NCBI GenBank assembly: GCA_026003755.1
Contig: BPHV01000001.1
Span: forward strand, 904,393 to 968,392
Length of the DNA: 64,000 nucleotides
Direction: 5' to 3'
Source of the DNA: Candidatus Roseilinea sp.
GTDB lineage: Bacteria; Chloroflexota; Anaerolineae; J036; Brachytrichaceae
Shown here: positions 37,613 to 63,930 of the stretch, one piece after another
How the letters are laid out: each line of letters starts with the position of its first letter
How positions within the stretch are numbered: position 1 is the first letter of the stretch
Notes under the pieces: generated by a model
The model's database searches: none
Seen by the model: the letters and a program-made list of their open reading frames with translations, nothing else
What the model was told of the DNA's origin: nothing
Made by a program: the position numbers and the translations under genes

Positions 37613-38971
37613 TCAGACCATCAGCGCGAACGGTCGCTCGATCAACTGCTTGATGCGCTGCAGGAAGCGGGCGGCTGGCGCGCCGTCCACCACGCGGTGG
37701 TCAAAGGACAGGCTGAGCGTCATCACCGGCCGGGCGACAACGGCACCGTCGTCGGTCACGATGGCTTTCTTTGCGATCCGTCCTACGCCCAGGATGGCTG
37801 CCTGAGGCAAGTTGAGAATCGGCGTGAAGCCGTCCACCTCGAACATGCCCAGGTTGGTAATGGTGAACGTGCCGTCGCGCAGCTCATCGGGCGACACCTG
37901 GCCTTCCAGCGTCCGCGCGATCAGTTGATTCAGCTCGCGGTGAATTTGTGCCAACGGCTTTGCGCCGGCATCGCGCAGCACGGGCACCAGCAGGCCGCGC
38001 GACGTGTCCACAGCGAGGCCAATGTGGATGCCGGAATGCCGCGCGACGCCCGGCTGTCCGGGATTGTCGGGCAGTGAATCCACCCAGCTCGCGTTCATGT
38101 ACGGATGCTCCCGCAAAGCGCGGGCGCAAATGGCGACGAGCAAAGTGTTGTAGCTGATCTTCTCCCCCAACTCGGCGCCGATCTGCTCGCGGGCGACGAC
38201 GAAGTGCGCGGCATCGGCCTCGGTGAACAAGGTGACATGCGGCGCGATCTGTGCGTTAGCCGCCAGGCGCTGCGCCGTGATGCGCCGCGCCGGCGACAGC
38301 GGCTGGTAATCGGCAGATGGCAATTGGGATGGCGCTGCCGGCGATCCATCCCCTTTCCCCTGCGCCGCACCCGCAAACCGCTGCCCTTGCGCTGCGCGCT
38401 CGACGTCCTCGCGGGTGATGCGACCCTCGGGGCCGCTGCCAGACACGCGCGAGAGATCCACGCCGAGTTCGGCGGCCATGCGCTGCGCGACCGGCGTCGC
38501 GCGCGGCGTTTTGGGCTGTCGGCTCTGGGCAAACGACAGGACATCGCGCTCGCGCACGGCGCCGTCTGGGCCGCTGCCGGCGACCTGCGCTAAGTCAACC
38601 CCCAGCTCACCGGCGCGCCACCGTGCGCGCGGCGAAATTGGCCGGCGCTGCCGGTCAAGCGACGATGAGGGCGCGCCATCATGCTTCACGCCGGCCAACC
38701 GAGCGTCCGGGGGCGCGGTCGGAGCATCGGCAATCGCGCGCTGTGCTTCAATCTGCGCAACTGGCATCAAACACGGCACGGTGTGGCCTTCCGACGCGAG
38801 GATTTTGACCAGCACCCCCGACTCCGGCGCTTCGTAGTCAAGCGTGGATTTCTCGGTCTCGAACGTGAACAGCAGCTCACCTTTGCGCACGCAGTCGCCT
38901 TCGCGCTTGTGCCATTGCACGATGACGCCCTCGGTCATCGTTAGGCCGACCTTCGGCATTACGATATCCAT
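37613..38971 (-). CDS. Dihydrolipoamide acyltransferase (E2), second copy
   Basis: This 452-residue E2 has the lipoyl Lys41 in FETEKSTLDYE and two E3/E1-binding segments (about 112-148 and 164-196). The catalytic domain has His425 and Asp429 in HRVVDG. It is not next to any E1 or E3 gene, unlike the copy at 28.2 kb. The linker before the catalytic domain (about residues 213-222) is encoded by a period-7 array. I infer a complex with a different substrate or one assembled from components encoded elsewhere. Confidence 0.92.
   Translation of the reverse strand: MDIVMPKVGLTMTEGVIVQWHKREGDCVRKGELLFTFETEKSTLDYEAPESGVLVKILASEGHTVPCLMPVAQIEAQRAIADAPTAPPDARLAGVKHDGAPSSSLDRQRRPISPRARWRAGELGVDLAQVAGSGPDGAVRERDVLSFAQSRQPKTPRATPVAQRMAAELGVDLSRVSGSGPEGRITREDVERAAQGQRFAGAAQGKGDGSPAAPSQLPSADYQPLSPARRITAQRLAANAQIAPHVTLFTEADAAHFVVAREQIGAELGEKISYNTLLVAICARALREHPYMNASWVDSLPDNPGQPGVARHSGIHIGLAVDTSRGLLVPVLRDAGAKPLAQIHRELNQLIARTLEGQVSPDELRDGTFTITNLGMFEVDGFTPILNLPQAAILGVGRIAKKAIVTDDGAVVARPVMTLSLSFDHRVVDGAPAARFLQRIKQLIERPFALMV
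38305..38332 (+). repeat. Tandem heptamer repeat in the E2 linker, 4 units
   Basis: GGTAATC, GGCAGAT, GGCAATT and GGGATGG follow one another exactly in 7-base register inside the second E2 gene. They encode part of the linker between the second binding segment and the catalytic domain. Confidence 0.55.
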
Positions 38972-45993: not shown

Positions 45994-46658
45994 GTCGAAC
46001 CCGCCTACGTGCATTGCTTGCGGCACTTACCCGTCCCCCCAGGCTCGCACACGCGGTCAACCCATACACCGAGCGTCGCCCGAAGCTGGACGTGCCGGAC
46101 GCGCCGCGAATTCGACTGGCCAACCTCGCGTGCTACCTGCACAATCACCGGGACGCGCGCATCGCGCTGATCGGCGAGGCCGCCGGCTATCGCGGCTGCC
46201 GCTTCACCGGCATCCCCTTCACCAGCGAGGCGCAACTGCGCGAATGGCGCGATCCGCGCTACCGCACGAGCAGCTTGCACGGCGATCACGACGAGCGATC
46301 CGCGCGGTGCGTCTGGCGCGCGATCGGCGCGCGCAACGACGTGATCCTCTGGAACGCCTTCCCTTGGCATCCGCACCAACCCGGCCGGCCATGGACGAAT
46401 CGCCAACCTTCGGCAGCGGAACTGCGCATGGGCTGTTTCGTGCTTCAGCGCTTTCTGGAGTGGAAGCAGCCGGAGCGCATCATCGCCGTCGGCCGGGCTG
46501 CCGAGCGCGCCCTGCGCGCGCTGGGTGCGCCGGCGATCTACGTGCGCCATCCATCGCACGGTGGCCAACGCCACTTCGAAAGCGCGATACACTCGCTGTG
46601 GGGAGCTGTGAGCTATGAGAGGATGGAAGACGCCAGACGCACAAGCTGCAACCCGTAA
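45990..46658 (+). CDS. Uracil-DNA glycosylase superfamily protein
   Basis: This 222-residue protein begins at a GTG that overlaps the previous stop (GTGA), with AGGAG six bases upstream. It shows the superfamily motif 1 as IGEAAGYRGCRFTGIPFTSE (about 61-80), NAFPWHPH near 127 and the late VRHPSHGG near 192. These correspond to the water-activating, base-pocket and leucine-loop regions. Motif 1 has no Asp, like families where Glu or Asn does the work, so the substrate range is unclear. The last 20 residues are encoded partly by a heptamer repeat and are probably not conserved. Confidence 0.75.
   Translation: MSRTRLRALLAALTRPPRLAHAVNPYTERRPKLDVPDAPRIRLANLACYLHNHRDARIALIGEAAGYRGCRFTGIPFTSEAQLREWRDPRYRTSSLHGDHDERSARCVWRAIGARNDVILWNAFPWHPHQPGRPWTNRQPSAAELRMGCFVLQRFLEWKQPERIIAVGRAAERALRALGAPAIYVRHPSHGGQRHFESAIHSLWGAVSYERMEDARRTSCNP
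46603..46623 (+). repeat. Heptamer repeat at the 3' end of the glycosylase gene
   Basis: GAGCTGT, GAGCTAT and GAGAGGA are in 7-base register. The first two units are of the same kind as the long array at 63.2 kb. Confidence 0.45.
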
Positions 46659-51952: not shown

Positions 51953-52414
51953 ATGAACGTACCGCGAAGATACGGCGGGCTCAGAGTCTTGGGGACGATC
52001 CTCATCGTCGCAGGCATCGTTGTGCTCGTCTTCGGGTTGATTGGCGGCTTGGTGTTGCTGACCGGCAACTTCTGGCCTGGTTACAACCAAGGCTTTAACA
52101 TGATCGGCTGGGGCCCGGTTCTCTTGGGCCTGGTGAACGGCATTCCGCTGATCGCGTTCGGCGCTTTGCTGCGCCTACTCACCGATGTCGAGTACAACTC
52201 ACGCGCTGCCCTGCAAGTGGCCGAGCAGAGCCGTAAGTCGGCTGAGGCGGCAGTGAAGAACAGCGAGACGCTCATGAAGAACACCGAGACCCTGATGCGC
52301 AACACTGAGGCAGCCGTTCGCAATATGGAAACGGCGCTGAAGAGCGTCGGGGGTGCCCCAGCGCCTGCAGTCGCCACAGCATCTGGCGCGACAGGCGCTC
52401 CGAAGACGGAATGA
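51953..52414 (+). CDS. Small membrane protein with a heptad-repeat coiled coil
   Basis: This 153-residue protein has two membrane segments (about 15-38 and 49-73). A basic turn follows, then a run of 7-residue repeats (about 93-130): KNSETLM, KNTETLM, RNTEAAV, RNMETAL. This predicts a coiled coil in the cytoplasm. The last 20 residues are Ala/Pro-rich. No family is recognised. It is transcribed with the duplicated-domain lipoprotein and ends at a strong terminator, so the pair may act together at the membrane. Confidence 0.7.
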   Translation: MNVPRRYGGLRVLGTILIVAGIVVLVFGLIGGLVLLTGNFWPGYNQGFNMIGWGPVLLGLVNGIPLIAFGALLRLLTDVEYNSRAALQVAEQSRKSAEAAVKNSETLMKNTETLMRNTEAAVRNMETALKSVGGAPAPAVATASGATGAPKTE

Positions 52415-57315: not shown

Positions 57316-57364
57316 ACTCCCTACTTCCGACTTCCCACCACCGAGCGGGCAGTCGAGAGTCGGT
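57316..57364. repeat. Tandem heptamer repeat, 7 units in exact register
   Basis: Seven consecutive 7-base units fill the gap between permease and ATPase genes: ACTCCCT, ACTTCCG, ACTTCCC, ACCACCG, AGCGGGC, AGTCGAG and AGTCGGT. The first four have the ACT/ACC form and the last three the complementary AGT/AGC form, as in the array inside the PfkB gene. Confidence 0.7.
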
Positions 57365-57367
57365 CAT

Positions 57368-58354
57368 TCACTTCCTCAGCGCACCGAACGTCACGCCGCG
57401 CAGCAAGTAGTCGCGCAAGGCAAACGTCACAATGATGACCGGAAACAAGAAGCCAAGCGTACCGGCTGCGATGGCCGACCACTCGATACCGCCGGTCCCC
57501 AGCACAGTCGGGATGCTGGGTGGGGCTGTGCGCGCGCGCTCGCTCGTCAGCATCAGCGCGAAGGCGTACTCGTTCCACGCGAAGATCAGGCAGAACACGA
57601 AGGTGGCGGCAATGCCGGTGATCGCCTGCGGCAACACCACCTTGCGGAAGGCTTGCAGCCGGCTGTAGCCGTCCACCAGCGCCGCCTCCTCATATTCGCG
57701 CGGGATCTCGTCAATGAAGCCCTTGAGCAACCACACCGCGAACGACAGGTTGAACACGGTGTAAAGCAGGATCAGTCCCAGATGGGTATCGTAGAGCCTG
57801 AGCTGCTGATACATCAGGAAGATGGGAATGGTGACGACCACCGGCGGCAGCATGCGCGTGCTGAGGATGAAGAAGAGCAAATCACCCTTGCCCGGCACAT
57901 GAAAGCGGCTGAAGGCGTAGGCCGCCAGCACGCCCAGCAACACCGAAAGCACGGTTGAGGCGCTGGCCACGATGACCGAGTTGATCAGCCGCTGACCATA
58001 CTGACTGGGCCCAGTGATGCGCTGGCCGCGCTCGGCCATGATGCGCTCGGCGAAGTTGAGGTCGGGGCGTTGCTTGTATTCCTCCATCATGCCCGGCGGC
58101 AACAGCACGCGCTTGGTGAGTAGGCTGATGAAGCCCTCGATCGTCGGCTCGAAGAATACCTTCGGCGGGATGGCGACGACATCGGGGCGCGACTTGAACG
58201 CGGCGGTCACCATCCAGAACACCGGGATCAGGCTGATCACGGCGTAGAGCACGACGACGGCGATGCGCAAGGCGCGTGTGAACTGATAACGCGCGCCCAC
58301 CTTGTCCACGCGCGTGGCATAGGTGATTGGAGCACTGGTTGTTGAAATGGCCAT
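57368..58354 (-). CDS. Sugar ABC transporter permease (UgpE/MalG-like)
   Basis: This 328-residue permease has about six membrane segments. The EAA loop EAALVDGYSRLQAFRKVVLPQAITGI (about 229-254) contacts the ATPase. A long N-terminal external loop (about 75-135) is larger than in MalG. With the upstream permease it forms the transmembrane channel of a CUT1-type sugar importer. Its stop is next to a period-7 array; the ribosome site and start look normal. Confidence 0.92.
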   Translation of the reverse strand: MAISTTSAPITYATRVDKVGARYQFTRALRIAVVVLYAVISLIPVFWMVTAAFKSRPDVVAIPPKVFFEPTIEGFISLLTKRVLLPPGMMEEYKQRPDLNFAERIMAERGQRITGPSQYGQRLINSVIVASASTVLSVLLGVLAAYAFSRFHVPGKGDLLFFILSTRMLPPVVVTIPIFLMYQQLRLYDTHLGLILLYTVFNLSFAVWLLKGFIDEIPREYEEAALVDGYSRLQAFRKVVLPQAITGIAATFVFCLIFAWNEYAFALMLTSERARTAPPSIPTVLGTGGIEWSAIAAGTLGFLFPVIIVTFALRDYLLRGVTFGALRK

Positions 58355-62547: not shown

Positions 62548-63930
62548 TCACAATAGCAAGCCGGGCCGCTCCAGCCCGCGCTGCAAGTCGCTCAGAAAGC
62601 GACCGACCTGCGCGCCGTCCACGATGCGATGATCGGCGCTCACGGTCAGCGTGGCGACCGGCGCAACCCGCGGCTGATCATGTTCATCCACGATCATGCG
62701 CTTGCCGGCGCGCCCCACGGCCAGGATGGCCGCCTGCGGCGGATTGACGATGGCCGTGAAGCGGTCCACGGCGAACATGCCCAGGTTGGACAGCGTGAAC
62801 GTGCCGCCCTGCACATCGGCCAGTTGCAGTTGGCCGGCGCGCCCACGCGCCGTCAGCTCATTCAGTCGGGCGGCGATCTCGATCAGGCGCAGTCGGTCGG
62901 CGTGATGGATCACCGGCACGATCAGCCCCTCGTCGAGCGCGACTGCGACGCCGATGTTCACATCGCCCCACTCGACGATGGACTCGTTCTCGAAGCCGGC
63001 GTTCAAGGCCGGGTTGCGCTGCAACGCCCAGGCGCACACCTTCACCAGCAGCGCGGTGAGGGTGAGCTTGGGTTGCCCCTCAGCTTGCGTCGCGCGCCAA
63101 TCCTCCACGACGGCCAGCGCGCGCGCCATGTTCACGTCGGCGCTCAAGTTGAATTGCGGCGCTTCGCGCGTGCTCTGGCTCATGCGCTGCGCGATCGTGC
63201 GACGCATCCCGGTCAGCGGTAGCACGCGGCGCACGGCCGGGCTGTGAGTTGCAGGTTGCGAGCTATGAGCTGTGAGCCGTACGTCATGAGCTACGAACTG
63301 CGCATCCGCACTGGCGCGTTGCATGCCTGATTCGCGTTGTGCCGCGGCAGCACGTTCCACATCAGACGACTGGATGCGACCGCTCGGCCCGCTTCCACTC
63401 ACCTGGCGCAGGTCCACGTTCAGTTCGCGCGCCAGCCGGCGCGCAGCAGGCACGGCAGCCGGCTTCGCCTCATCCACACCACGGCGCTCACGCTGGGCCA
63501 GAAACGTCTCCACGTCCTGCCGCGTGATTTGCCCATCGCGCCCTGTGCCGACGACTTGGCTGAGATCAATCCCGTGTTCCTCGGCCAACTTTTGCGCAAT
63601 CGGCGTCGCGCGGCGTTCACTTGGCGTTTTGCGCCCTATATCTTGCGTAGGATCGTGCACCACCGGCGTTGCAGACGAAGGCACGGCCTCTCCTTGGACG
63701 GCAATGTAGGCGATGGGCCGACCGATCGGCACGCTGGCACCGGCCTCAGCCAGGATAGAGTCAAGGATGCCATCGGCCGGCGACTCGACTTCCATCGTAA
63801 TCTTGTCGGTCTCCACTTCCAGCACAGCCTCGCCCTTAGCCACCGGCTCGCCGACGCGCTTCAGCCAGCGAGCGATGGTCCCGCTTTCCTGGGCCATCTC
63901 GAACTTGGGCATGATGATCGGCGTGGGCAT
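62548..63930 (-). CDS. Dihydrolipoamide acyltransferase (E2), third copy
   Basis: This 460-residue E2 has the lipoyl Lys43 in VETDKITMEVE, two binding segments (about 110-145 and 160-195) and a catalytic domain with His434 and Asp438 in HRIVDG. The linker at about 210-231, rich in His, Ala, Thr and Ser, is encoded by a long period-7 array and is unlike normal Ala/Pro linkers. A GGAGG ribosome site lies before the ATG. The tail of another gene ends 18 bases upstream, so it is probably in an operon with an E1 component outside the window. Confidence 0.93.
   Translation of the reverse strand: MPTPIIMPKFEMAQESGTIARWLKRVGEPVAKGEAVLEVETDKITMEVESPADGILDSILAEAGASVPIGRPIAYIAVQGEAVPSSATPVVHDPTQDIGRKTPSERRATPIAQKLAEEHGIDLSQVVGTGRDGQITRQDVETFLAQRERRGVDEAKPAAVPAARRLARELNVDLRQVSGSGPSGRIQSSDVERAAAAQRESGMQRASADAQFVAHDVRLTAHSSQPATHSPAVRRVLPLTGMRRTIAQRMSQSTREAPQFNLSADVNMARALAVVEDWRATQAEGQPKLTLTALLVKVCAWALQRNPALNAGFENESIVEWGDVNIGVAVALDEGLIVPVIHHADRLRLIEIAARLNELTARGRAGQLQLADVQGGTFTLSNLGMFAVDRFTAIVNPPQAAILAVGRAGKRMIVDEHDQPRVAPVATLTVSADHRIVDGAQVGRFLSDLQRGLERPGLLL
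63239..63301 (+). repeat. Long tandem heptamer array in the third E2 gene, about 9 units
   Basis: The units GAGTTGC, AGGTTGC, GAGCTAT, GAGCTGT, GAGCCGT, ACGTCAT, GAGCTAC and GAACTGC run in exact 7-base register from 63246 to 63301; a less perfect unit precedes them. They lie between the second binding segment and the catalytic domain and keep the reading frame open. Confidence 0.75.

Follow-up and report, generated by a model that had tools for sequence, protein, structure and literature searches.

The third linker of a 2-oxoacid dehydrogenase acyltransferase (E2) from a Candidatus Roseilinea bacterium is very probably (a probability of roughly 0.82) a coding copy of a dispersed and degenerate heptamer microsatellite family, carried by the protein as a neutral passenger. 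The gene lies in a 64,000-nucleotide stretch of DNA, here called the window, whose source was placed in this genus of the Chloroflexota (Anaerolineae) by its E2 matches. A tandem array of 7-base units supplies the linker codons, and related words recur across the genome. A different heptamer makes up the linkers of the same enzyme in a second genus of the family.

Heptamers in the E2 gene and in other genes

The features of the E2 gene considered here are the following.
62548-63930, minus strand: E2 (2-oxoacid dehydrogenase acyltransferase), 460 aa, identified by Pfam domains and an AlphaFold model.
63239-63301, plus strand: clear heptamer array of nine GAGYTRY units (coding-strand word ACAGCTC) over residues 210-231, identified by lag-7 score and unit alignment.
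63302-63322, plus strand: eroded continuation of three more in-phase units (GCATCCG, CACTGGC, GCGTTGC), identified by a phase and a right border common to relatives G007, G003 and G001.
63624-63651, plus strand: second heptamer word, eroded (GCGTTTT, GCGCCCT, ATATCTT, GCGTAGG), in the first linker, between lipoyl domain and PSBD, found at the same site in G007 and G001.

The protein comprises a lipoyl domain (PF00364), two peripheral-subunit/E3-binding domains (PSBD; PF02817, two stretches) and a catalytic domain (PF00198), the composition that defines the E2 of 2-oxoacid dehydrogenase complexes. One other E2 was seen in the window (37622-38968, minus strand) and is 41% identical to it. The AlphaFold model predicts the two heptamer-bearing linkers to be disordered, with pLDDT values under 50 for residues 84-104 and for residues 204-226.

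A sequence-only reading of the window had proposed that about nine 7-base units at 63239-63301 encode residues of about 210-231, a linker segment, in what it called the third E2, and these coordinates proved exact. The nine units (GGGCTGT, GAGTTGC, AGGTTGC, GAGCTAT, GAGCTGT, GAGCCGT, ACGTCAT, GAGCTAC and GAACTGC) retain the purine/pyrimidine pattern RRRYYRY at 62 of 63 bases, and 17 of their 18 departures from GAGCTGT are transitions. The top lag-7 segment of the entire window is 63239-63302, with a score of 26.8. None of 100 sequences simulated for the window with a third-order Markov model scored as high (maximum 21.4, mean 12.0, sd 2.0), nor did any of 500 codon shuffles of the linker. Window peaks for the other periods from 4 to 25 lie between 9 and 19, with the exception of period 21 (25.4), which reflects an unrelated coding repeat at 52244. 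The E2 units are too degenerate for TRF, which at a minimum score of 30 did not report the array. Including the eroded continuation, the whole third-linker tract measures 84 nt, or 12 units, and is bounded by conserved codons for AVRR and ESGM.

Residues 210-231, read from the minus strand, are AQFVAHDVRLTAHSSQPATHSP. A perfect (ACAGCTC)n translates to TAHSSQL, three units yielding seven residues as had been proposed, and the linker peptide is therefore a readout of the heptamer. In the first linker, the heptamers of the window by themselves give a weak signal (P 0.05 by codon shuffling), whereas those at the corresponding position in G007 and G001 give a strong one (0 of 1000 shuffles).

In-frame heptamers are also present in other proteins. 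The variable loop of MurE contains the peptide LNSQFSIL, which matches the translation of a perfect AATTCTC array, and heptamers occur in this loop in G001 and G005 as well, with traces in G007. A loop of phosphoenolpyruvate carboxylase (PEPC; L080:13898-13939) contains an in-frame inverted pair of heptamer arrays that is kept in G002 and G007, and two membrane glycosyltransferase-like proteins carry in-frame heptamers. All of these in-gene heptamers, including those of E2, are in the stop-free orientation; this is a requirement of an open gene and provides no evidence of function.

The E2 linker within and beyond the genus

The third-linker tract contains 12 units in G000 and G007, 15 in G003 and 18 in G001 (84, 84, 105 and 126 nt), these being differences between species with one genome compared for each, and all counts are multiples of three because the reading frame must stay open. 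By alignment, the linkers with heptamers are 28, 28, 35 (G003) and 42 (G001) residues long and those of orthologues without heptamers 16-29 residues. A simple insertion of about 20 residues, which the sequence-only reading had expected, is not supported by these lengths. The 28-residue linker of the window is of normal length and was therefore rewritten, with lengthening in G003 and G001 only. The expectation that the heptamer linker would be limited to a lineage fared better, as the linker is present in only part of the Roseilinea genus, and array length does vary between species. Ordinary linkers with no period of 7 are found in the congeners G002, G005 and G008 and in three genomes of genus g3.

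G002 (NK_OTU-006) is the sister species of the window source (MurE 95%, PEPC 94% and a neighbouring kinase gene about 94% identical), and was considered as a possible empty site. This was rejected on account of a divergent central E2 segment: codons 101-240, which cover both PSBDs and the linkers, have about 43-75% DNA identity to the window, compared with 82-100% in the catalytic part. A codon-window comparison shows that over codons 101-240 the window E2 resembles those of G001, G003 and G007. G002 probably owes its lack of heptamers to replacement of the central segment and does not represent an ancestral empty site; the segment has the appearance of a gene-segment replacement by recombination. 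With the central segment of G002 divergent throughout, the close relatives offer no clean empty site in E2, which counts against the passenger reading.

In G011, a member of another genus of the same family, all three E2 linkers are built from a different heptamer, GGTCGGY. Near-perfect triplets of GGTSGGY number 15 in the G011 genome and 0 in G000, G001, G002, G003, G007 and G017, and GAGYTRT occurs 64 times in G007, 48 in G001, 7 in G000, 5 in G003 and 3 in G002, with 0 in G011 and G017. The linker word is therefore the word of the host genome. The E2 linkers of G011 were colonised independently by its own genomic repeat. The linkers are recurrent landing sites, in agreement with the suggestion that they are a natural place to observe the spread of the repeat. 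Among 43 distinct E2 open reading frames, segments scoring at least 14 were found at period 7 only (none at 5, 8, 10, 11 or 13) and in five of the frames, and all of these segments lie in linkers except for a further array of G001 (SKYG71, L020), which occupies the open stretch immediately upstream of the E2 start codon.

Dispersed arrays and their change in length

Two further heptamer sites are located in the window.
46603-46616, plus strand: two perfect units of the E2-array word, GAGCTGTGAGCTAT, immediately before the next gene begins.
57316-57343, plus strand: short array of a sister word (ACTTCCG type; ACTCCCT, ACTTCCG, ACTTCCC, ACCACCG) in a spacer by the end of a sugar ABC transporter permease gene (57368-58354).

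Beyond these, the genome was sampled over 464 kb, consisting of the window and 20 stretches, some of them picked around known array matches, and was also covered by pattern searches. The sample contains 18 lag-7 segments above a score of 16, compared with 0-4 for other periods and 12 for the harmonic period 14. Most of the strong arrays are intergenic, although a crude ORF estimate puts the non-coding share of the sample at only about 10%. Their vocabulary is small and related (GAGYTRT, GCGYYTT, ACTTCYG, AATCTCY and ATTCTCA), and several arrays shift from word to word with the phase held constant. An exact-word scan allowing one mismatch (GAGYTRYGAGYTRY) was uninformative genome-wide, with 71 matches against 72 in the reversed control.

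Three unlinked intergenic arrays (L001:1495-1672, L007:1501-1645 and, on the minus strand, L004:1417-1521) have the same word order and polarity, namely GAGYTGT, GAGCTTT and GCGYTTT followed by GCGTCYT/ACTTCYG and/or AATCTCY. At L122:578-716, an array of CAAGACG units is followed by its inverted counterpart (GCGTCTT units), and the two could form a long hairpin. In G121, which belongs to the same class and another family, exact triple GAGYTRY matches number 37 in the forward and 3 in the reverse direction, far more than in the other Chloroflexota sampled, and many of them stem from contig C8, which carries one long array of perfect GAGTTAT units.

The spacer after pyrR (phosphoribosyltransferase) measures 177 nt in G000, 184 nt in G002 and 212 nt in G007, with gaps equal to 1, 4 and 5 heptamers, again between species represented by one genome each. 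It is shorter in other relatives (67 nt in G005, 26 nt in G003 and G006, 6 nt in G008), and the prs spacer likewise varies in heptamer number. Within the intergenic arrays, adjacent units are more similar than distant ones (for example, 6.1 declining to 3.9 of 7), a signature of local duplication. Whole-unit length differences combined with a similarity that falls with distance suggest that arrays gain and lose complete units where they stand, and point to slippage as the way in which the heptamer arrays change. Unit similarity in the E2 array shows no such drop with distance, and slippage growth at that site is therefore argued from the intergenic arrays.

Origin of the linker and relation to known repeats

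We propose that the linker codons received a small number of units in the common ancestor of G000, G007, G003 and G001. Slipped-strand mispairing or unequal recombination would then have lengthened and shortened the array 7 bases at a time. Selection for an open E2 would have kept only the stop-free orientation ACAGCTC (GAGCTGT carries TGA) and retained only net gains or losses in steps of three units (21 bp, 7 aa). The heptamer peptide could have taken over from an Ala/Pro sequence with no evident cost because the linker is disordered, and the array would since have been eroding, chiefly through transitions. Slippage leaves unaccounted for the recurrence of a few related words at many sites and their same order in three arrays.

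The common order and polarity at three unlinked spacers would be expected if the arrays were copies of a composite mobile cassette (ordered GAGYTGT, GCGYTTT, GCGTCYT, ACTTCYG, AATCTCY) that inserted whole, with the E2 linker receiving a fragment. We consider this unlikely: no gene travels along with the arrays, each E2 linker contains a single word that differs between linkers 1 and 3, and the relatives with short pyrR spacers of 2 to about 6 units (G003, G006 and G005) fit growth in place. No terminal inverted repeats or flanking target-site duplications, the marks of MITE/REP transposable repeats, were seen by eye in the E2, pyrR and prs alignments, which include no near-identical empty site.

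It is considerably less probable that the linker peptide is selected at the protein level as a functional His/Ser/Thr linker with a 7-residue period, making the DNA period a by-product. The linker is kept in four species and a 7-residue period is visible in G001, which would suit such selection, but non-coding spacers hold the same DNA words, the G011 peptide is unrelated and made by that genome's own word, erosion is under way in the array of the window, and the linkers of other congeners are of the ordinary Ala/Pro type. Equally improbable in our estimation is an active template-directed process, with units of 7 bases copied by a polymerase or reverse transcriptase from a few related templates in a preferred order. 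If true, it would explain why so few words are shared, why they follow one order at sites that are not linked and why the E2 array has almost no transversions, and the E2 linkers would be recording sites of that activity. Chance periodicity of a GC-rich linker under low constraint has a negligible probability, since, although the linker is of low complexity in all orthologues, the Markov simulations and codon shuffles contradict it, the words are shared genome-wide and linkers without such words show no period of 7.

The passenger reading shows a route by which a non-coding microsatellite family turns into protein sequence, and it presents protein linkers as traps for spreading DNA repeats, traps that we infer to be neutral. 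Stop-free heptamers that change in three-unit steps generate predictable peptides (TAHSSQL, KTQDARR, NSQFSIL and ADRRPPT), so that database searches for such peptides can reveal linkers of repeat origin, and linkers can serve as a natural assay of the particular repeat that was spreading in a given lineage.

Heptanucleotide SSRs are established in bacteria, with GGGAATC in Xanthomonas and GGGGAYT in Nostoc (PMC4692102). The Roseilinea arrays are of the same kind: tandem 7-base units beyond chance, related and degenerate words dispersed genome-wide and mostly intergenic, whole-unit length variation between species and occasional inverted pairs. They are unlike these SSRs in that one array may morph through several words and that copies inside genes make up the linkers and loops of conserved enzymes. 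Beggiatoaceae and Cyanobacteria have TAACTGA repeats (PMC4679880), which are also heptamer arrays, some of them within ORFs outside functional regions and stop-free in one orientation only; they use one fixed word, and the available part of that source describes neither in-frame use as an inter-domain linker nor an enzyme colonised repeatedly by different words. In the Chloroflexota, Chloroflexus aurantiacus has (GATAGRA)n satellites scattered through its genome (PMC6749651), with another word in another organism and no linker case described in the available part of that source. Rickettsia palindromic elements (PMC3767692) resemble the heptamers of E2, MurE and PEPC as dispersed repeats that lie in frame inside conserved housekeeping genes and occupy matching loci in the orthologues. 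These elements are palindromes of 100-150 bp, whereas the units of the E2 array repeat directly in tandem, with no single long hairpin, and only some other arrays (PEPC and L122) are inverted pairs. E2 linkers are typically Ala/Pro-rich, flexible inter-domain segments of 25-30 residues (PMC6270654); the present linker is likewise a flexible inter-domain segment, with a composition set by a genomic repeat. Heptamer repeats, including some within ORFs, were thus already known, and what is new is the recurrent colonisation of one enzyme's linkers with host-specific words.
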